Assembly (NCBI GenBank): GCA_014377625.1
Contig: JACMPG010000255.1
Location: 1-42,266 of the forward strand
Direction of reading: 5' to 3'
From: Spirosoma sp.
Lineage (GTDB): Bacteria; Bacteroidota; Bacteroidia; Cytophagales; Spirosomataceae
Length of the DNA stretch: 42,266 bases
Below are positions 7,196-15,960 of this stretch, piece after piece. A model generated the notes under the pieces. That model was not told the origin of the DNA. It ran no database searches and saw nothing but the letters and a program-made list of their open reading frames with translations. Numbering within the stretch: the first letter of the stretch is position 1; the number at the start of each line of letters is the position of its first letter. Both the position numbers and the translations under genes were made by a program.

Positions 7196-7576
7196 ATGAG
7201 GACGGATTCTTCCACTAATAAGGCCGATTACGTAGGTATTACCGGATCAATACTTTGCCTGATTCACTGTATCGGTACGCCTTTTCTTCTGGTAGGCTCG
7301 GCCCTGACGCCACATAAGCACCTGACAATTGGTTTTTTAAGTCTCGATTACCTCTTCATCGGCGTCAACGTCATCGCCGTTTTCTTAGCCACCCGGCACT
7401 ACGCCCAGCCTGTCATCAAGCGCGCCCTGTGGGGGTTTCTGATCCTGTTTGCGGGTAGTCTGCTGCTCGAAAACGTCAGTGGTGCTTTCCACTACATAGG
7501 CTACTTAGCCTCCGCCGGGCTGGTCCTTACCCATCTCACCAACATCTGGCAGCACCGGCTCAACCACACACATTGA
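7196..7576 (+). CDS. MerC domain-containing membrane protein
   Basis: A 126-residue protein with four hydrophobic segments (about 12-32, 44-63, 75-92, 97-115) and the CLIHC motif at residues 21-25 in the first helix, the cysteine pair characteristic of MerC. The C-terminus ends HRLNHTH. MerC proteins were first known as mercuric ion transporters; in Bacteroidota solitary members often belong to zinc or other metal homeostasis rather than mer operons. No other mer genes are present. The palindrome over its promoter supports metal-dependent control. It converges on the di-heme enzyme gene. Confidence 0.8.
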   Translation: MRTDSSTNKADYVGITGSILCLIHCIGTPFLLVGSALTPHKHLTIGFLSLDYLFIGVNVIAVFLATRHYAQPVIKRALWGFLILFAGSLLLENVSGAFHYIGYLASAGLVLTHLTNIWQHRLNHTH

Positions 7577-7577
7577 C

Positions 7578-7613
7578 TGACGCAGCCCGGACTTCCCGGT
7601 CCGGGCTACGTCA
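7578..7613. terminator. Bidirectional hairpin between merC-like and di-heme enzyme genes
   Basis: TGACGCAGCCCGGACT then TCCC then GGTCCGGGCTACGTCA form a long GC-rich stem with few mismatches between two convergent genes. The stop codon of the minus-strand gene (TCA at 7611-7613) lies in its right arm. It shares the TAGC-CCGG style with the hairpin at 2687-2716. Confidence 0.7.
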
Positions 7614-8714
7614 ATTTGGTGCGCTGAACTGCCGGTCGGCAATGTAGGCGGTATCGGTGAGGGTGTTGAGGAAAGCGATAATCTGCTGCTTTTCTGGATC
7701 GGTGAGCAACACACCGGGTTTGCCGTTCTGGCGCAGGACCGGGTCGAGTTCCGGCACCTCCTGCATGGTAGTATAATGATTCAGCACATCGTTGAGGGTC
7801 CAGAACCGGCCATCGTGCATGTAGGGCGGAGTACGGGCCACGTTGCGCAGACTTGGCACTTTGAATTTGAATTTATCTTCAGTTCGCAGGGTAATGCCGT
7901 ACCGCCCCACGTCCTGATTGAGAACACGGCTCAGGCCGTTGTTCCGGAACGACTGGTCAGTGAATAACTCACCGGCGTGGCAACTGCTGCACTTTTGCTG
8001 AAACAGGTTTAGCCCAGCCAGCTCATCTGAGGTCAACTGCCCCCCTGCTTCTTTGCGAGCGTGTTTATCGTACCGACTGTTGGCCGACACCATTGTCAGC
8101 ATAAACTGCGACAAACTCTTTAAAAACCGCGCCGTCGTAACCGAGTCCGACCCAAAAGCCGACTGGAACAGGGGCCGGTATTTGGCCGATTGCCGCACTG
8201 CGTTCAACAAATTGGGCATGGAATGGGCCATCTCAACCGGATTTTCGATGGGCGCTATCGGTAGTAAGTCAAGGTCCGCTACCCCCCCGTCCCAGAAAAA
8301 GTTTTTGTAAAACGCCAGATTCTGCAAGCCGAGGTTATTACGAGTGCCAATCTTGTCATTCACGCCATGACTCAGGGCGTGGTCGGGGTGAGCAAAAGCG
8401 GCTGGCTGCTGATGGCAGAAGGCACAACTGACCGTTCCGTTCACCGAGAGCATATCGTCGTAAAATAGTGTCCGGCCCAGCGCAACACCCTCCAGCGTCA
8501 GCGGATTATTGGCAAAGTTATAAACAGGGTCAGGAAAATTGGTGGGCTTTTTCCAGGGGTAGGGCGTCGTCTGGTACACAACTGGTGGCTTCATATCGGG
8601 TTTGCCCGGCACCGGTGCGGGCGTCACCACCTCGCTCCCACCCGACTGGCACGATGCCACCACACCGAACAACGCGGCACTGAGCAGGAAACCGATGAGT
8701 TGAAGCTGTTTCAT
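7611..8714 (-). CDS. Di-heme cytochrome c peroxidase/MauG family lipoprotein (MbnH-like)
   Basis: A 367-residue lipoprotein (Cys22 after a hydrophobic signal). Two c-type heme sites are present: CAFCH (97-101) and CSSCH (242-246). Between them lie GTRNNLGLQNL and FFWDGG (139-144), typical of the MauG/CcpA superfamily. Known members either reduce peroxide or, like MauG and MbnH, oxidise a partner protein through high-valent heme. The gene starts only 2 bases after the stop of an MbnP-like gene, the same pairing as in methanobactin-linked operons, where MbnH converts a Trp of MbnP to kynurenine to build a copper site. A plain cytochrome c peroxidase is the alternative; pairing makes the MbnH role more likely. 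Confidence 0.85.
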   Translation of the reverse strand: MKQLQLIGFLLSAALFGVVASCQSGGSEVVTPAPVPGKPDMKPPVVYQTTPYPWKKPTNFPDPVYNFANNPLTLEGVALGRTLFYDDMLSVNGTVSCAFCHQQPAAFAHPDHALSHGVNDKIGTRNNLGLQNLAFYKNFFWDGGVADLDLLPIAPIENPVEMAHSMPNLLNAVRQSAKYRPLFQSAFGSDSVTTARFLKSLSQFMLTMVSANSRYDKHARKEAGGQLTSDELAGLNLFQQKCSSCHAGELFTDQSFRNNGLSRVLNQDVGRYGITLRTEDKFKFKVPSLRNVARTPPYMHDGRFWTLNDVLNHYTTMQEVPELDPVLRQNGKPGVLLTDPEKQQIIAFLNTLTDTAYIADRQFSAPN

Positions 8715-8716
8715 AG

Positions 8717-9547
8717 TCAGTCCGTAACTGCCGTTTTTAGTCCTTTGTACGAAAACATACCGGCGTAGTTTTTGGCCACCGTAGCGGAAAACGGCGAGAT
8801 CATTACTTCAGGATACGCTTTGATACTGATGGGTGTTGTTCCGTCAAAAATCGTCAGCACGTCGGCCTGTATCTGCACCGCTGGCTGGCGGAATGGATCA
8901 ACCTGCGCTACGTCAGCACCGAAGGACACCGTGATGGTTTTCAGATTATTAATCGTTTTGGTATCGCGCCCGCCGAAATAGCCAATGTGGTAGCGAAAGT
9001 TGCCCCTGCCCGTAGCATCGCGGGGCGCGCTGGGCGAGGTGCCTTCGAGTTTCATAAAAATATACCCCGAATTCCACGACCAGTACATGCCGTTGGCCCC
9101 CGTATGGTCAACTGCCGGGTCGAGCGCGCCCGTCCGTTTGCTGATATCTGCCGTACTGCGCAGACTATCGACCCCCAGCACGAACGAAACGGCTTTATAA
9201 CTACCCTCCGGTACGTTGTTGAGCGTGATTTTCTGCGTGGCCGGGTCTGTCTGGCGAATCAGAAAATAGCTGCTGTCCTGCGGCACCACGTAAGCCGAGC
9301 CATCGGTACGGATAAGCCGGATATTGCTCACGAAGTAGTTGAAATTCGTGGGTGTAAACGACTCGCCCGATGCATTTTTATACGCAACAGTCCCCAGTTG
9401 CAGCGGCTGAGTACCAACTACGTTGCTAAAGTCCAGCCCGAATTTGGCTGGTGGCCTGGCCGCTTCGGGATCGTTGGTATTGCAGGCCAGAAACCCCGCC
9501 AGCAGCGCAGCGGTGAGCAGGGAGAGAGACAGGAATAAACGGCGCAT
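8717..9547 (-). CDS. MbnP family copper-binding lipoprotein
   Basis: A 276-residue protein with a signal peptide ending in a probable lipobox (GFLAC, Cys22). Residues about 35-240 match the MbnP family; the signature GMYWSWNSGYIFMKLEG lies at 153-169 and holds two Trp (156, 158) that are candidates for oxidation. In studied MbnP, one Trp is converted to kynurenine by the partner di-heme enzyme and the site binds Cu(I). Conserved His-containing HTGANGMYW and FRYHIGYFGG segments could add ligands. Two bases separate it from the di-heme gene. The protein should sit in the outer membrane facing periplasm or surface. Which Trp is modified is not known here. Confidence 0.85.
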   Translation of the reverse strand: MRRLFLSLSLLTAALLAGFLACNTNDPEAARPPAKFGLDFSNVVGTQPLQLGTVAYKNASGESFTPTNFNYFVSNIRLIRTDGSAYVVPQDSSYFLIRQTDPATQKITLNNVPEGSYKAVSFVLGVDSLRSTADISKRTGALDPAVDHTGANGMYWSWNSGYIFMKLEGTSPSAPRDATGRGNFRYHIGYFGGRDTKTINNLKTITVSFGADVAQVDPFRQPAVQIQADVLTIFDGTTPISIKAYPEVMISPFSATVAKNYAGMFSYKGLKTAVTD

Positions 9548-9573
9548 GTACGATCTGGTTTACTGGTTTAGTA

Positions 9574-9609
9574 AAACCTGTCAGGTCTCCAAAAAGACCT
9601 GACAGGTTT
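9574..9609. repeat. Perfect inverted repeat, AACCTGTCAGGTC family
   Basis: Arms AAACCTGTCAGGTC / GACCTGACAGGTTT (14 bases, perfect) around TCCAAAAA, in the 73-base gap between the small membrane protein gene and mbnP-like gene. The motif is of a kind repeated between genes in Bacteroidota. It could act as an attenuator or RNA stabiliser inside the cluster. Confidence 0.75.
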
Positions 9610-9620
9610 AGAGATAATAG

Positions 9621-9824
9621 TCAATCGAATTTACCCCGCCCGTACATCGTAATGGCCGTGGCAATGCAGGCACTGATAATCATCAGGAATAACCACACCA
9701 GCGCGTTACTTGCGCTGAATGGTTTCTGAAAAAGCTCGTTAACTAGTCCGGCAATGGTACCGAAGAAAACACCGATCACACCGATGTAAATAAACTGAAC
9801 AACAGGCGGTAAGCGTCGAAACAT
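9621..9824 (-). CDS. Small two-helix membrane protein
   Basis: A 67-residue protein with two hydrophobic segments (about 8-28 and 41-61) joined by a short polar loop with NELFQKPFS, ending in YGRGKFD. I do not recognise a family. It lies between the TonB receptor and the mbnP-like gene on the same strand, with 102 bases upstream and a perfect hairpin downstream, so it may have its own transcript. Its ATG start at 9824 and compact membrane design support a real gene. A role in the cluster is only suggested by position. Confidence 0.6.
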   Translation of the reverse strand: MFRRLPPVVQFIYIGVIGVFFGTIAGLVNELFQKPFSASNALVWLFLMIISACIATAITMYGRGKFD

Positions 9825-9926
9825 AAACGATCAGACTTTGTCTATTTTCAACGAACAGCCAGCAAAAATCGTTAGTGGTATCCCGTTTTTTTCTGCCAGC
9901 CAGAGCGGAAACGTAACATGCCTAAT

Positions 9927-12329
9927 CTAAAGCTTGAACTGAAGCGTTACGTAGTAGTTGCGGATGTCGGCGGGGAGGATGCCGGGGCCGGGGTAGCCAT
10001 CGGCCCGGCGGGTGAAGTATTTGGCGTTGGCCAGGTTGTTGACGCCCGAATACAGCGTAAACTGCCGCCAGTTATAGCTTGCACTCAGATCCATGACCGA
10101 GAATGCCGGAATGGCCCCATCAACGGCGGTGGGCGTTTGCTCGGTGTTGGTTGCATCGGAATATTGCTTCGTCTGGAAAGCAAACTGGTACGTTACGTTA
10201 AACCGCTGATTGCCCGTACTCAGACCGGTACGCAGCAAAACGGGCGGTACGTTCTCAACCAGTTTATTAGCGATGGCAGTGTTCTGCGTATTGACGTACC
10301 GGGCATTGATCAGCGACAGACTCGTGTAAAGGTTTAGCTTGTAGGGCGATTTGCCGCGCGTAATGGCCCGTAGAATATCGCCGTCGAGCAGAAATTCGAT
10401 ACCGAGGTTACGGCTGTCCGATACGTTGGTACGCAGCCGGTAGGTCATAAAGCTACTATCGGTCGTGAAAATGGAGCCAATCCTATCGTTGTATTTGAGA
10501 TAAAACAGGCTCACATCGGCGTAGAGCCAGTTTTTGTACGTACCGCGCACCCCCAAGTCGATGTTGAAGCCGGTTTCGTCTTTCAGGTTGGGGTCCACCC
10601 GCGCGTTGGTATTGACCACCCGGATGTCGTTAAAGTTAATGGACCGGTAGTTTTGCGAGATGTTGGCGTAGAACTCGGCCCCCTGCCCAAACTTCCGGCT
10701 GGCCCCGATACCCAGTAGCATAAACGTGCGGGGGTTGGCGCGGGTCTCGAAAATCTGCTCGTTGGCAATGAATTTGTTTTCCTTGAAATAATACCCGTCC
10801 GCTTTGGTGTTGATAAACTCGAACCGCGCGCCCGGTGTGATGCTCCAGTTTTTGCCCAGCCGGAAGATGTTCTCCGCAAAAACCGCCACGTTGTTCCCCG
10901 GAAACCGGAAACTGGATTTATTAGGCTGGGCATCGAGAAAGGCAAAATCCGGCCCGTCGTTGTTGTTGCCGTCGCCCTGTTTCCGAGTGGTCAGGCCCTT
11001 GTAAAGTCTGGCTCCAATCAGGAAGGTGTTGTCGGGCTGACCGAGCAGCCTGTACTGATGAATGAACCGGAATTCGCTGCCAAAATTATTGTAACGGTCG
11101 GCCATGTAATCACGGTTTACGCCCAAGTCAGGCCGGTTTATGTAGGTCAGCGCACCAATGGCTTCGCGCCCACCCTGCAACGTATAAGTACGCCAGTTGA
11201 TGCGGGTATTTTTGGCGAAGGCGTAATCCAGATTGAAGCTGATTAGATTCCAGTCCACCTTAAACCAGTTTCTGGCCCGCACTGACACCGATGGGTCATC
11301 GGCAAACTGCGCGTCGGTCAGGCCACCGGGCTGCTGAGCCAGGTAGGTCATGCGGGTGTACTGGCCGGTTAGTTTGAGTTTCGGGCTGACCTCGTAGCTT
11401 AGGTGAACATAGCCGTTTTGCTGGTCGAACTGGCTGTTGGGTCGCCAGCTATCGCCCCGCTTGTACTGAAAAAAGGCGTAGTAGTTGAGTTTACCCTTTG
11501 CCACCGTTCCGCCCACGCTGTTGAAGGAGTTGACGAAGCCGAACGAGCCGCCGGTCTGCCGAAGGGTCAGCTCGATGGGTTTATTGCGCGGCCCTTCGCG
11601 CATGACGAAATTAACCAGCCCGCCAAACTGCGGACCGTACTGCAAACTGGCTGCGCCCCGCACAATTTCAATTTTACTAAGGGCCTCTGCCGAAGGCGTA
11701 TAATAGCTTTCGGGATAACCCAGTGCATCGGCACTGATGTCGTAACCGTTTTGGCGGATGTTGAAGTTGGACGAGCGGTTGGGACTCAACCCGCGCCCAC
11801 CAATACCGAGCTGCAAGCCACCCCGGTCGTATTCCCAGATGTTGAGGCCGGGGATGCGGGCGTAAATCTGGCGGCTGTTATTGGTGGCCAGGTTAGCGTT
11901 CAGATTTTTGACATTGATAAGTTCCGTCTTTTTGCTGGCGTAAATCGACGTACCCAGCACGTCGCTGAGTTTGCCCGATACGTCGGTGGTCTGACCAACC
12001 ACCGTCACTTCATTGATGAGAACCCCGCCCGCTTCTTCGAGCCGAATATCGAGTTTTAGGCCCGCATTGGCAACGGTAACCGTATCGACTCGGGGTTTAT
12101 AGCCCAGCGAACTCACTTCGAGCCGGTACTGTCCCGGCGTGATGTTACCAAACCGGAAAAAGCCGTTGTCGTTGCTGATTTCCACCGCGTCTGCCGGGTA
12201 CAGCCGCACCACCGCCCCCGGAATGGCTTCGGTACCATCGCGGACGGTGCCTTCTACAAACAGCGTCTGACCAGTCGCCAGCAACGTGGATAGACAAAAA
12301 AGTGACAGGTAAATAATTCGCCAGATCAT
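9927..12329 (-). CDS. TonB-dependent outer-membrane receptor with carboxypeptidase-like N-terminal domain
   Basis: An 800-residue receptor: signal peptide (1-21), a carboxypeptidase D regulatory-like beta domain (about 24-100, with GYKPRVDTV), plug domain (about 115-245, with IEIVRGAASLQYGPQFGGLVNF), then a 22-strand type barrel ending in YYVTLQFKL with terminal aromatic/hydrophobic residues. The style resembles FecA-like siderophore receptors. It would import a metal complex using TonB-ExbBD energy (not in the window). The gene starts 2 bases after the HTTM gene stop, so translation is likely coupled. Substrate is not readable; the imelysin partner suggests iron, the MbnP pair copper. Confidence 0.92.
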   Translation of the reverse strand: MIWRIIYLSLFCLSTLLATGQTLFVEGTVRDGTEAIPGAVVRLYPADAVEISNDNGFFRFGNITPGQYRLEVSSLGYKPRVDTVTVANAGLKLDIRLEEAGGVLINEVTVVGQTTDVSGKLSDVLGTSIYASKKTELINVKNLNANLATNNSRQIYARIPGLNIWEYDRGGLQLGIGGRGLSPNRSSNFNIRQNGYDISADALGYPESYYTPSAEALSKIEIVRGAASLQYGPQFGGLVNFVMREGPRNKPIELTLRQTGGSFGFVNSFNSVGGTVAKGKLNYYAFFQYKRGDSWRPNSQFDQQNGYVHLSYEVSPKLKLTGQYTRMTYLAQQPGGLTDAQFADDPSVSVRARNWFKVDWNLISFNLDYAFAKNTRINWRTYTLQGGREAIGALTYINRPDLGVNRDYMADRYNNFGSEFRFIHQYRLLGQPDNTFLIGARLYKGLTTRKQGDGNNNDGPDFAFLDAQPNKSSFRFPGNNVAVFAENIFRLGKNWSITPGARFEFINTKADGYYFKENKFIANEQIFETRANPRTFMLLGIGASRKFGQGAEFYANISQNYRSINFNDIRVVNTNARVDPNLKDETGFNIDLGVRGTYKNWLYADVSLFYLKYNDRIGSIFTTDSSFMTYRLRTNVSDSRNLGIEFLLDGDILRAITRGKSPYKLNLYTSLSLINARYVNTQNTAIANKLVENVPPVLLRTGLSTGNQRFNVTYQFAFQTKQYSDATNTEQTPTAVDGAIPAFSVMDLSASYNWRQFTLYSGVNNLANAKYFTRRADGYPGPGILPADIRNYYVTLQFKL

Positions 12330-12331
12330 AA

Positions 12332-13666
12332 TCAGTTGGTATCAAAAGGCAGTACCCAGTCGTAGGGTCGCCAGCTTAGTTTTTTAGCCGCCAGATTCAC
12401 CGTCGAATCGACAAACAGCCGCGACGGTTCGCCGTTAAGCGTTACGTATACCTCGGCATACACCTTTGGCCCGGCCACACCTTTGGCTTTGAATTGGTCA
12501 GCTACGTAGTGGGCATATTTTAAAATCAAATCGGGCTGACTACTCATCATTTTCTCCTGCAAGGGCGTCAGGTACTGCCCGTTATCGACCGTCCAGGATT
12601 TTTTACCGGTCTGGTCTTTGACCGTAAAATAGGCCGCACCGGCTTTTTCCATGAGCATCACGCGCCACGAAAAGCGGTAGCCCTGTTCGGTCCAGAACAG
12701 CTTGCCCGGATACAGCAGGTAGCGTATGGGCACTAGGAGCTGTACACAGACATACACCACCACCAGCCCAGCAGCAACGTTCCTGTACCAGAACTGGTAC
12801 GGCTCAGCGGGTAACGCAACTTGCCTGAAGGGCAGAAACGACAGCAGCTTCTGATGAAATTCGCCCGAAAAGAAAATCAGGCTGCTGGCAATCATAACGT
12901 AGGGAAACATACCGATGGCCGGAAAAAACAGGGCTGTGGCGGCATGGAACAGCAGGACGAATCCGTAGGCGGTGGGGCGGGTTTTACGGTTCAGCAGGAA
13001 GAAGACAATGAACAAATCGTAGCCCGCCCCAAACCACGAGAACAGATACGCCACCCAGTCGTCGTACATAAACGACCCCACAATGGGCAGGTGGCTTTTA
13101 GACGGCAGCCAGGTTTTCATCGGTTCGGCCCGCAGCAGCCAGTCGGCGTTGAGTTTGGCCAGCCCGGCAAAGACGTAGACCAGTGCCATCTGAAACCGCA
13201 GAATGCCGATGGTCCAGCGCGGCACCCGCAGCCGGGGTTTGATGAATCCGAAATACGCATCGAGCGAGTAATAGCGGTTGGCAGGTAACCAGACCAACAG
13301 AAACGCCACCAGGCTGATGAAGTAGTAATGGTTGAGGTAGGTTGTTACGTCGATCAGCTCTACGTAGGTGAACCCGAGGAAAAAAATAACGATGGCCGGG
13401 CGATAGAACAGCCCCAGTGTTACCAGCAACGCGCAGCTAATCAGCACGAAAACCAGCAGGTACATCCCGGTATCGCCCAGGGGTTGCACCCACTCAAAGC
13501 CCCAGTACGTGAAATGAAACGGGGGCGTAACGTACAAAGCCGTAATCCAGCCCCGCCACCAGAACCGAATCAGACTACCCAGCATCAGCAGCCCGAACGT
13601 AATCCTGAACGTGACCAACGGGGCAATGGAAACCGACCGATTACTGCCGAATTCCTTAATCACCAT
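12332..13666 (-). CDS. HTTM domain (vitamin K-dependent gamma-carboxylase-like) membrane protein
   Basis: A 444-residue protein with many hydrophobic helices in the first 310 residues and a soluble C-terminal region (about 345-444). The helical part has LRFQMALVYVFAGLAKLNADWL and FGLLMLGSLIRFWW, typical of the HTTM domain of vitamin K-dependent gamma-carboxylase relatives. The animal enzyme carboxylates glutamate; bacterial HTTM proteins mostly lack a proven reaction. The ATG at 13666 (MVIKEFG) overlaps the imelysin gene by 11 bases; a longer start at 13708 would overlap more. It sits between imelysin and TonB receptor genes, so a role in modifying or assembling a metal-uptake protein is plausible but unproven. 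Confidence 0.82.
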   Translation of the reverse strand: MVIKEFGSNRSVSIAPLVTFRITFGLLMLGSLIRFWWRGWITALYVTPPFHFTYWGFEWVQPLGDTGMYLLVFVLISCALLVTLGLFYRPAIVIFFLGFTYVELIDVTTYLNHYYFISLVAFLLVWLPANRYYSLDAYFGFIKPRLRVPRWTIGILRFQMALVYVFAGLAKLNADWLLRAEPMKTWLPSKSHLPIVGSFMYDDWVAYLFSWFGAGYDLFIVFFLLNRKTRPTAYGFVLLFHAATALFFPAIGMFPYVMIASSLIFFSGEFHQKLLSFLPFRQVALPAEPYQFWYRNVAAGLVVVYVCVQLLVPIRYLLYPGKLFWTEQGYRFSWRVMLMEKAGAAYFTVKDQTGKKSWTVDNGQYLTPLQEKMMSSQPDLILKYAHYVADQFKAKGVAGPKVYAEVYVTLNGEPSRLFVDSTVNLAAKKLSWRPYDWVLPFDTN

Positions 13667-14741
13667 CGTTATCCATGTACGTAATCTGCACCGATGTGGC
13701 CGACGCAACGTCGGTTTTTATCAGCGTCAGCAATTTCTGCACCTGACGGTACGCTTCTTCCACCTGCGCAGGATTTTTAGCGAACGACTCGGACATGGGC
13801 TGCGGAATGGCGTTAAGGGCGCTGATGGCCACATCGAACTGGGCCGACACCTGATTGGCCAGGGCTTCTTTTTTCAGCAGCACCAAATAATCCGCGATGC
13901 CGTTGCCGGAACCGCCGACGTAGTAATTTTTCAGATTGGTCAGGTTAGCCACGGCCAGTTCTTTGGTCAGCCCCGAGTAATAGCCTTCGCATTTGTCGGC
14001 AAAGACGATATTGTTGGAGCGTTTGCCAAAGGGCCAGCCAATGCGCGGGCCTTTCATCGCGTCGAGCTCGTAGGCAAACTGATTGACCAGAAACGCAATA
14101 GAACTGCCCACATCGGTTTTGAGCGAGGTCTCGAACGACGCACGGTACGGCCCGTTCCACTGCGCAGCCGTATTGCTCACCAGCGTTTTCATCCGGGCCA
14201 TCACATCACGCACGTATTTTTTCCGGGCCGGGGAATCGGTTCCCGAAAACTTTCCAACGGCATTGGGCGCGAACAGCAGATAATCCAGGGCCGGAAATCC
14301 CTGAATGCTGTCGCTGACAACGGGCTGATCGAACCGGTAGTTGCCCGACGCAATACCCCGCTCGATTTGAGACGTAGCGGGCGGAAACGTGTTGATATAA
14401 TTGTTCAATAACAGGGCGGACGCCGGACCGAAATACACAGCCGACGTAGCCTGGTAACTCAGGTAAGCCGCTTTGTAGGCAGGTTTGGCAGCGTCTAAGG
14501 TGGTTGCCGACGGATTATCCAGAAACCCGTTTACCTGCGTTTCCAGCGTTGTCAGTTTAGCAGACAGATCGGCGTAGGCCGGAATAATGAGGTTGCCCGC
14601 ATAATTGGTAAGCATGCCGGTTTTAAAAGCATCATTACCCGACGGCGCGGGGTCGGTCGTGCCTTTGTTTTCGGTACAGGCGTAAAAAACGGCACCGGTC
14701 AGGATGGTGGCTACGGCCAGAGTAATGCGGGGAAATTTCAT
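13656..14741 (-). CDS. Imelysin family lipoprotein (IrpA/insulin-cleaving metalloprotease-like)
   Basis: A 361-residue protein with signal peptide and lipobox Cys22 (VFYAC). It contains the imelysin helical bundle: YKAAYLSYQATSAVYFGPA and the region QGFPALDYLLF (147-157), which corresponds to the GxHxxE motif but here reads G-F-P-A-L-D, lacking the His. Imelysin proteins are iron-regulated, periplasmic or outer membrane, and are linked to iron uptake; classical peptidase activity is doubtful with this motif. The ATG at 14741 is used; a start at 14804 would translate part of a palindromic repeat. It overlaps the HTTM gene by 11 bases. Confidence 0.88.
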   Translation of the reverse strand: MKFPRITLAVATILTGAVFYACTENKGTTDPAPSGNDAFKTGMLTNYAGNLIIPAYADLSAKLTTLETQVNGFLDNPSATTLDAAKPAYKAAYLSYQATSAVYFGPASALLLNNYINTFPPATSQIERGIASGNYRFDQPVVSDSIQGFPALDYLLFAPNAVGKFSGTDSPARKKYVRDVMARMKTLVSNTAAQWNGPYRASFETSLKTDVGSSIAFLVNQFAYELDAMKGPRIGWPFGKRSNNIVFADKCEGYYSGLTKELAVANLTNLKNYYVGGSGNGIADYLVLLKKEALANQVSAQFDVAISALNAIPQPMSESFAKNPAQVEEAYRQVQKLLTLIKTDVASATSVQITYMDNDGD

Positions 14742-14766
14742 GCTGATAGTGAGTTTTGATACTGGC

Positions 14767-14847
14767 TTTGTCATGCTGAGGAAGGAAGCATCTCGCTGTA
14801 GCAAAACTCTCTCTACAACGAGATGCTTCCTTCCTCAGCATGACAAA
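14767..14847. repeat. Long palindromic repeat with perfect 29-base arms
   Basis: Left arm 14767-14795 starts TTTGTCATGCTGAGGAAGG; the right arm 14819-14847 is its exact reverse complement. The centre adds TGTAG/CTACA, leaving an 11-base loop. It begins one base after the DUF4856 stop and ends 26 bases before the imelysin ATG. The TGTCATGCTGAGG-AAGCATCTCG pattern is a widespread Bacteroidota intergenic repeat. Inside an operon, it would make a very stable RNA hairpin and could lower or process downstream message. Confidence 0.85.
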
Positions 14848-15960
14848 CTATGGTTGTAATTGTCCATACGCGCCGGTCAGAATAGCCTGAGCCTGCTTCA
14901 GTTTGGCATTGGTAGCATCTTCGGCCAGCACATAGTAACTGGTGTTCATAATCGAGACCAGCGTCTGGTAATTGGCAGCGGTCAGTTTGCTATTGGCGGG
15001 CCGGTATTTCAGAGCCGCCACAAACCCGGCCCCTTCTGACAGACCATGAAACTTAGCATCGATGGCCGTCTGGGTTTGTGGATTCGTTACGTAGTAATAA
15101 GCCGACGCGGCCAACGCCTTTTCGAGGTATTCTTTGATGGTGATGATAGCAGCATCGCGGACCGCGTAGTCTTTGGCTGTAATGGCAGCCCGGCCCGTGC
15201 GGAATGCCTCAAACACCCGGCCACCGGCCTGGATGTAATTGCCCCGTTCGGCAAAGTAACCGCCAAGGGCCAGCGGACGATCGGCTTTTACGGGTGTGGT
15301 GCCGTAATTATAGGTCACATCATAGTCCATTGGGATGCCAACGTAGCCGAAGGCAAGGTCCCAGTTGTGTTCCATTTCGGTGCCTTTACCCGCAATAACC
15401 ATCGTATTGTTGCTGGCGGGAATTTTATCGAGGAGGGCGTTTATATTGGCCAGTATCAGCCCGCCCATCAGCCCTTTGGCCACGATTTGGTTGTATTCAA
15501 CGCCGTTGCTATTGAACAGACGGGTATCAATCCTGCCCGGTACCCCTTTCGAGGCCGCCGTTTTGTTGAATTTGCTGATATAAACCGTAGAGTCGGCCAG
15601 CGTTTTGAACAGACCAGCGTCGGTTACTTTACCGGAGAGGTTATAGCCCAGTCCGTTCAGGTCGGTGAAAGAATACGGAACATTGCTGGCCAGTTCGGGC
15701 GTGAAGGCGTTATTAGTGTTATTCCAGAGGTAGTTGACCGTATCCGCGCTTAATACCCGCGTATTGCTTTTACCCAGGTAGGTCTGAAACCCCTGCCACA
15801 TGCCGATTCGCGTGGCCGATTCTTTGTAGTCAACATTGGTGAAGGCGTACGTTGCCGGTACGGTATAGGCCTTGACAGGATCAGGCTCAACAATGCTGCT
15901 GTCGGTACAGGAAATAAGCAGGGCAGCAAATGAAAGGGCTACGTAGTAAGAGGTCTTCAT
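14848..15960 (-). CDS. DUF4856 domain lipoprotein
   Basis: A 370-residue lipoprotein (LLISC, Cys18). Residues about 30-365 match the DUF4856 family; the landmark motifs are TEMEHNWDLAFGYVG (about 194-208) and FHGLSEGAGFVAALKY near residue 305. The acidic/His residues of the EMEHNWD motif resemble a metal-binding patch. The family is largely restricted to Bacteroidota and often neighbours imelysin genes; its function is unknown. It is the first gene of the minus-strand cluster, with a TAnnTTTG promoter element 30 bases upstream. Confidence 0.82.
   Translation of the reverse strand: MKTSYYVALSFAALLISCTDSSIVEPDPVKAYTVPATYAFTNVDYKESATRIGMWQGFQTYLGKSNTRVLSADTVNYLWNNTNNAFTPELASNVPYSFTDLNGLGYNLSGKVTDAGLFKTLADSTVYISKFNKTAASKGVPGRIDTRLFNSNGVEYNQIVAKGLMGGLILANINALLDKIPASNNTMVIAGKGTEMEHNWDLAFGYVGIPMDYDVTYNYGTTPVKADRPLALGGYFAERGNYIQAGGRVFEAFRTGRAAITAKDYAVRDAAIITIKEYLEKALAASAYYYVTNPQTQTAIDAKFHGLSEGAGFVAALKYRPANSKLTAANYQTLVSIMNTSYYVLAEDATNAKLKQAQAILTGAYGQLQP

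Follow-up and report, generated by a model that had tools for sequence, protein, structure and literature searches.

Can a copper site of the kind known from methanobactin-linked systems be made without methanobactin in a Bacteroidota host? The question is raised by a Spirosoma locus at which an earlier note had placed the genes for an MbnP-like protein and a two-heme MauG-type protein 2 bases apart. In the window, the whole stretch of 42,266 nucleotides analysed here, the two open reading frames were found at 8717-9547 and 7611-8714, both on the minus strand and separated by bases 8715-8716, as had been proposed. Judged from sequence comparison, they represent two adjacent putative lipoproteins, an MbnP with a WxW motif and a di-heme enzyme nearest to MbnH, which stay paired across Bacteroidota.

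MbnP and its WxW motif

The gene at 8717..9547 (minus strand) encodes a 276-aa lipoprotein that was assigned to the MbnP family by Pfam PF20243 (189.3 bits, E 8.3e-56; gathering cut-off 27) and by its fold. The AlphaFold2 model (single chain, mean pLDDT 89.3) had six PDB fold matches at E <= 0.001, all of which were chains of the Methylosinus MbnP (7l6g); the match was moderate, with a TM-score of 0.50-0.59 on the query and 13-14% identity. The NCBIfam model TIGR04052 (MbnP_like_WxW) gave 55.5 bits, below its equivalog cut-off of 140. The closest named relatives were those of Spirosoma lacussanchae (71%), S. sordidisoli (70%) and S. utsteinense (63%).

The WxW motif of TIGR04052 is present as W156-S-W158, at the positions that the earlier note had given, and these are the sole Trp residues of the protein. 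W156 (codon 9080..9082, minus strand) falls on the first Trp of WNW in 7l6g, and this alignment together with its conservation marks it as the candidate Trp for kynurenine, as had been suggested; W158 (9074..9076, minus strand) is the second Trp of the motif. Judged by conservation, M154 (9086..9088, minus strand) and H187 (8987..8989, minus strand) may be copper ligands, H187 also being aligned with a His of 7l6g. The four-Cys motif is absent from this MbnP, whose one Cys is the lipid anchor, Cys22; in both MbnP and the di-heme protein, Cys22 follows a hydrophobic N-terminus, which resembles a lipoprotein signal.

The di-heme protein and its nearest relatives

The partner (7611..8714, minus strand) is a 367-aa di-heme MauG-type protein that matched PF03150 (CCP_MauG) with an E value of 2.1e-48. 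Its top-scoring NCBIfam model was TIGR04039, 'MbnH family di-heme enzyme' (E 2.6e-63), at 214.1 bits against a cut-off of 362.85, and TIGR03791, for MauG of the mau operon, gave 166.9 bits against an equivalog cut-off of 443.85. With a profile of 18 relatives, 6e1c ranked first (5.5e-70), followed by the peroxidase 1iqc (1.2e-60) and MauG 3l4m (1e-43); among PDB structures, the single-chain model (pLDDT 81.2) matched 6e1c best (3.1e-18), followed by cytochrome c peroxidases (2.7e-17) and MauG (1.5e-15). The entry 6e1c is the solved MbnH, a MauG-like protein of copper homeostasis, and the family names proposed for both proteins of the pair were thus borne out. Because the two proteins score below the NCBIfam MbnP and MbnH cut-offs, we consider them to be of the broad kind and not of the curated equivalog groups, and these scores, together with the lack of the four-Cys motif, indicate a divergent Bacteroidota branch.

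Pairing and conservation across Bacteroidota

The set of loci used to assess conservation (numbered L below) comprised 60 regions, of 16 kb to 20 kb unless the contig was too short, from a draw of 198 Bacteroidota genomes, which cover most, not all, of the MbnP places of that draw, as well as 24 named loci and 20 regions from the family of the host. These loci yielded 117 MbnP matches, of which 111 were kept after the removal of two below 60 bits and four duplicates. For 105 of the 111 distinct MbnP genes, an MbnH homologue followed on the same strand at a distance of no more than 3 kb. The loci had been selected because they carry MbnP and are mutually related, so that the counts do not represent independent events. 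The pairing of MbnP and MbnH is not due to chance. Among the six exceptions, L194 runs off its stretch, L105 has MbnH directly upstream and the MbnH genes of L202 lie about 4 kb away; no MbnH was found in the fetched stretches around the MbnP genes of L104, L106 and L113. In a mirror-tree comparison, MbnP and MbnH distances were correlated with an r of 0.85, a value that includes shared species history, and the maximum in 500 shuffles was 0.17.

The conservation of the Trp residues in MbnP homologues, which the earlier note had named as a check, was clear among the 105 pairs: W156, the most conserved of the MbnP sites tested, was Trp in 104 and W158 was Trp in 96, while H187 was His in 99 and M154 was Met in 94. 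An earlier set of 91 MbnPs, unfiltered for pairing or score, gave 88, 80, 83 and 80 for W156, W158, H187 and M154, respectively. PF20243 was found in 51 of the 198 sampled Bacteroidota genomes, and of 81 genomes from the family to which the host belongs, 63 had a relative of the MbnP in the window. Relatives with 28-31% identity are also carried on the Deinococcus plasmid records AP021851.1 and NZ_OV024759.1.

Within MbnH, both heme-binding motifs are of the CxxCH type. C97AFCH101 of heme 1 (8412..8426, minus strand) retains C97, C100 and H101 in 105/105 pairs, and C242SSCH246 of heme 2 (7977..7991, minus strand) is kept in 104/105, the remaining one being truncated. E161 (codon 8232..8234, minus strand), which we take to be the distal-side Glu of bCcP/MauG, is Glu in all 105. 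At Y314 (codon 7773..7775, minus strand) Tyr occurs 99 times, Phe five times and a gap once; this residue is probably the Tyr ligand of the MauG/MbnH type, at a site occupied by Met in classical peroxidases. In the profile alignment, this column holds Tyr in 6e1c and Met in 1iqc. Tyr was also present at this column in both other PF03150 proteins of the host genome, and Tyr314 was therefore rejected as proof of MbnH identity; the residue argues against a classical Met-ligated peroxidase without singling out MbnH. The MbnH-like features that were found are the two CxxCH hemes, the Tyr replacing the Met ligand and the adjacency to MbnP. In addition, W141 of MbnH aligns with a Trp of 6e1c, and just 83 of the 105 pairs have Trp at this site.

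These data bear on whether the di-heme protein might act mainly as an H2O2-removing peroxidase, for which MbnP would be a docking or electron-transfer partner and no Trp would be converted. Cytochrome c peroxidases belong to the same superfamily and score close behind MbnH in the profile and fold rankings given above, as such a role would predict. However, the ligand position, which holds Tyr and not Met, the near-invariant W156 of the partner and the tight pairing of the two genes argue against it, and we consider this explanation unlikely.

WxW and Y314 do not covary, because nine of the 105 MbnPs lack the WxW pair and adjoin MbnHs with Y314 intact, and the five MbnHs with Phe314 adjoin MbnPs with an intact WxW. 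W158 or the entire WxW is lost in MbnP paralogues at L076, L079 and L090 and at L070, L078, L081, L082, L085 and L086; some of these variants adjoin an intact MbnH and are natural variants for testing the motif. Two tandem MbnH genes each were found at L050, L069, L077, L080, L084, L085, L088 and L111, and at L088 and at L111 Phe replaces Tyr314 in one of these genes. At L105, L107, L108, L110, L112 and L114 (L107 and L108 being duplicates), a T9SS-type protein with CxxxxCH, the L105 copy of which is choice-of-anchor V, is encoded between MbnP and MbnH; the same six loci have Ser at H187 of MbnP.

Genes around the pair

A small membrane ORF of 67 aa (9621..9824, minus strand) lies just upstream of MbnP and precedes it in three named Spirosoma as well (L091, L092 and L093, with the duplicates L185 and L186). 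A MerC-like protein is encoded at 7196-7576 on the plus strand, convergent with MbnH; this side feature of the window recurs near MbnP in L091-L093 and in L193, L196, L200 and L204. A pattern scan of 9501-10150 on the minus strand for a Bacteroidota promoter motif gave no match.

In other Bacteroidota, the pair has further neighbours. A small membrane protein with three Cys is encoded immediately upstream of MbnP in 41/105 pairs, and a protein headed by CxxC immediately downstream of MbnH in 30/105. The three-Cys family (for example, L091:5506-5931 (+)) has 68 distinct members of 100-179 aa in the fetched loci, with C..CxGxC (three Cys and one Gly) in 68/68 and a late PP in 67; two members that were scanned had no Pfam match above cut-off. 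The CxxC-headed family (298-339 aa; for example, L091:8070-8981 (+) and L045:7436-8455 (-)) has the N-terminal CxxC in 36/36, and for two scanned members neither Pfam nor NCBIfam gave a family above cut-off. Searches of the host's own genome for the cl2 and cl4 proteins, with one query sequence each, gave no match, an empty answer that is uninformative alone. Five loci (L050, L058, L061, L089 and L109) share a cluster of proteins near MbnP/MbnH, of which the L050 member matches Pfam YHYH. TonB receptors of a wider kind were located no more than 5 kb from MbnP on the same strand in 18/105 pairs.

The three-Cys membrane protein is possibly a copper-binding leader protein. We tentatively consider that this protein (C..CxGxC..PP) before MbnP and the CxxC-headed protein after MbnH could take part in copper uptake. 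A methanobactin-free copper uptake system of the Bacteroidota's own, consisting of the pair, the three-Cys protein, the barrel-sized CxxC protein and TonB receptors, where present, is a conceivable though rather doubtful reading. If it were true, kynurenine-copper sites would be common and largely unstudied across the phylum, with variants in WxW or the His, and the window would represent a stripped-down form with the pair and the small membrane ORF only.

The upstream TonB operon

Upstream of MbnP, an operon encoding DUF4856, imelysin, HTTM (VKGC-like) and TonB receptor proteins, identified by family matches, extends over 9927-15960 on the minus strand. It shares its strand with the pair, and the receptor stop is separated by 102 bases from the small ORF, which in turn is 73 bases from MbnP. 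This arrangement would fit the pair being a new extension of an iron-type operon that handles iron or another metal, and a Fur-regulation table for Riemerella in PMC5609570 gives consecutive loci as a TonB receptor, a vitamin K-dependent gamma-carboxylase, an imelysin and a hypothetical protein. A TonB receptor near the MbnP of L040, 34% identical to that of the window, points in the same direction and, like the wider-kind TonB receptors close to MbnP in 18/105 pairs, blurs a clean split. However, HTTM was found beside MbnP in the window only, among the loci fetched, and when 20 HTTM-centred stretches (16-19 kb) from the host's family were inspected, all four family types occurred together in 17 and MbnP or MbnH in none. 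Moreover, MerC and the small upstream ORF stay with MbnP in other Spirosoma that have no TonB operon at that place. We therefore regard such an extension as very improbable. On the counts from the HTTM-centred stretches, a single copper operon that joins the pair to all four of these upstream genes was also rejected. Based on the same counts and the Riemerella table, the receptor adjoining MbnP most likely belongs to a separate iron-type operon, and it is probably not part of the MbnP/MbnH system.

The HTTM protein itself resembles the human vitamin K-dependent gamma-carboxylase across both domains (E 3.9e-37). Its Lys185 and His127, which are kept in 21/21, each align with a residue of the same type in the human enzyme, and we take these to be K218 and H160. 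A literature search found no paper on imelysin together with HTTM.

Methanobactin genes and a proposed maturation of MbnP

The earlier note had seen no MbnB or MbnC genes, and the host's own genome (85% complete) likewise gave no match to TIGR04159 (MbnB), a profile that matched 1 of 14 control genomes, or to TIGR04160 (MbnC), for which the absence of any control match makes the result weak on its own. The pair is thus probably outside a methanobactin operon here, as the note had claimed. As a novelty, this claim did not hold: as stated in a part of PMC3621798 (2013), conservation of the pair, for which TIGRFAM models exist, reaches well outside the methanobactin producers, and a passage of PMC9426467 describes copper operons that are organized around DUF2946 genes and include MbnPH-like genes. 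An MbnP/MbnH pair away from methanobactin genes is already known, and the Spirosoma pair adds a further case without changing the known picture in kind. Literature searches gave no paper on MbnP in Bacteroidetes and none on the term 'metallo-mystery pair'.

We favour, as the probable explanation, a divergent Bacteroidota MbnP/MbnH pair in which MbnH would convert W156 and MbnP would hold Cu(I). In its favour are the family assignments, the profile and fold rankings, the WxW alignment with 7l6g, the conserved sites, the pairing with its distance correlation, the Tyr at the Met-ligand column and the precedents of CorA/CorB and MopE. Weighing against it are the scores below the NCBIfam cut-offs, the lack of Cys other than the lipid anchor in MbnP, the moderate fold match, the nonspecific Tyr314, the failure of WxW and Y314 to covary and the lower conservation of W141. 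Work of Manesis in 2021 reportedly traced the kynurenine of Methylosinus MbnP to the action of MbnH on the first Trp of its WxW. For the Spirosoma pair, we infer kynurenine formation and copper binding as follows. Both proteins would act in the periplasm or at the outer membrane, where either peroxide or O2 together with electrons would oxidize MbnH, and the oxidized MbnH would draw electrons from W156 over a distance. W156 would be converted to kynurenine (+4 Da), and kynurenine-156 and H187, perhaps also M154, would bind one Cu(I); the matured MbnP would then serve in copper binding or uptake, and methanobactin would not be required. Overall, the earlier interpretation is plausible and partly supported. 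Should this chemistry be borne out, copper sites with protein-bound kynurenine would be widespread in Bacteroidota, given the proportion of sampled genomes with an MbnP-family gene (51/198), and cultured Spirosoma would offer a methanotroph-free setting for such sites.

Comparison with known systems

MauG (3l4m) is, like the proposed MbnH, a di-heme enzyme that oxidizes a Trp of a partner protein; it differs in its lower profile score (1e-43) and in its substrate, methylamine dehydrogenase. The CorA/CorB and MopE/SACCP systems of methanotrophs resemble what is proposed for the Spirosoma pair in having a copper protein co-transcribed with a di-heme protein of the bCcP/MauG type and a kynurenine near copper. 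As described in part of PMC3912023, copper sites with kynurenine are known in CorA and MopE, the copper of CorA has two His, water and kynurenine as its ligands, and the di-heme CorB is co-transcribed; a passage of PMC3621798 names the organisms of CorA and MopE as ones in which no methanobactin operon was detected. The CorA site has H64, H114 and Kyn62, with Kyn and the first His two residues apart (PMC3912023, in part), whereas the Spirosoma MbnP combines WxW with a single conserved His; the sequences are, according to PMC3621798, not markedly similar. The system most alike is that of Methylosinus trichosporium (7l6g and 6e1c; TIGR04052 and TIGR04039), which shares the adjacent pair, the WxW motif, the MbnP fold and a MauG-like di-heme partner that carries Tyr at the matching column. 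Unlike it, the Spirosoma pair has no methanobactin genes found with it, lacks the four-Cys motif and scores below the NCBIfam cut-offs, and both its MbnP and its MbnH are lipoprotein-like.
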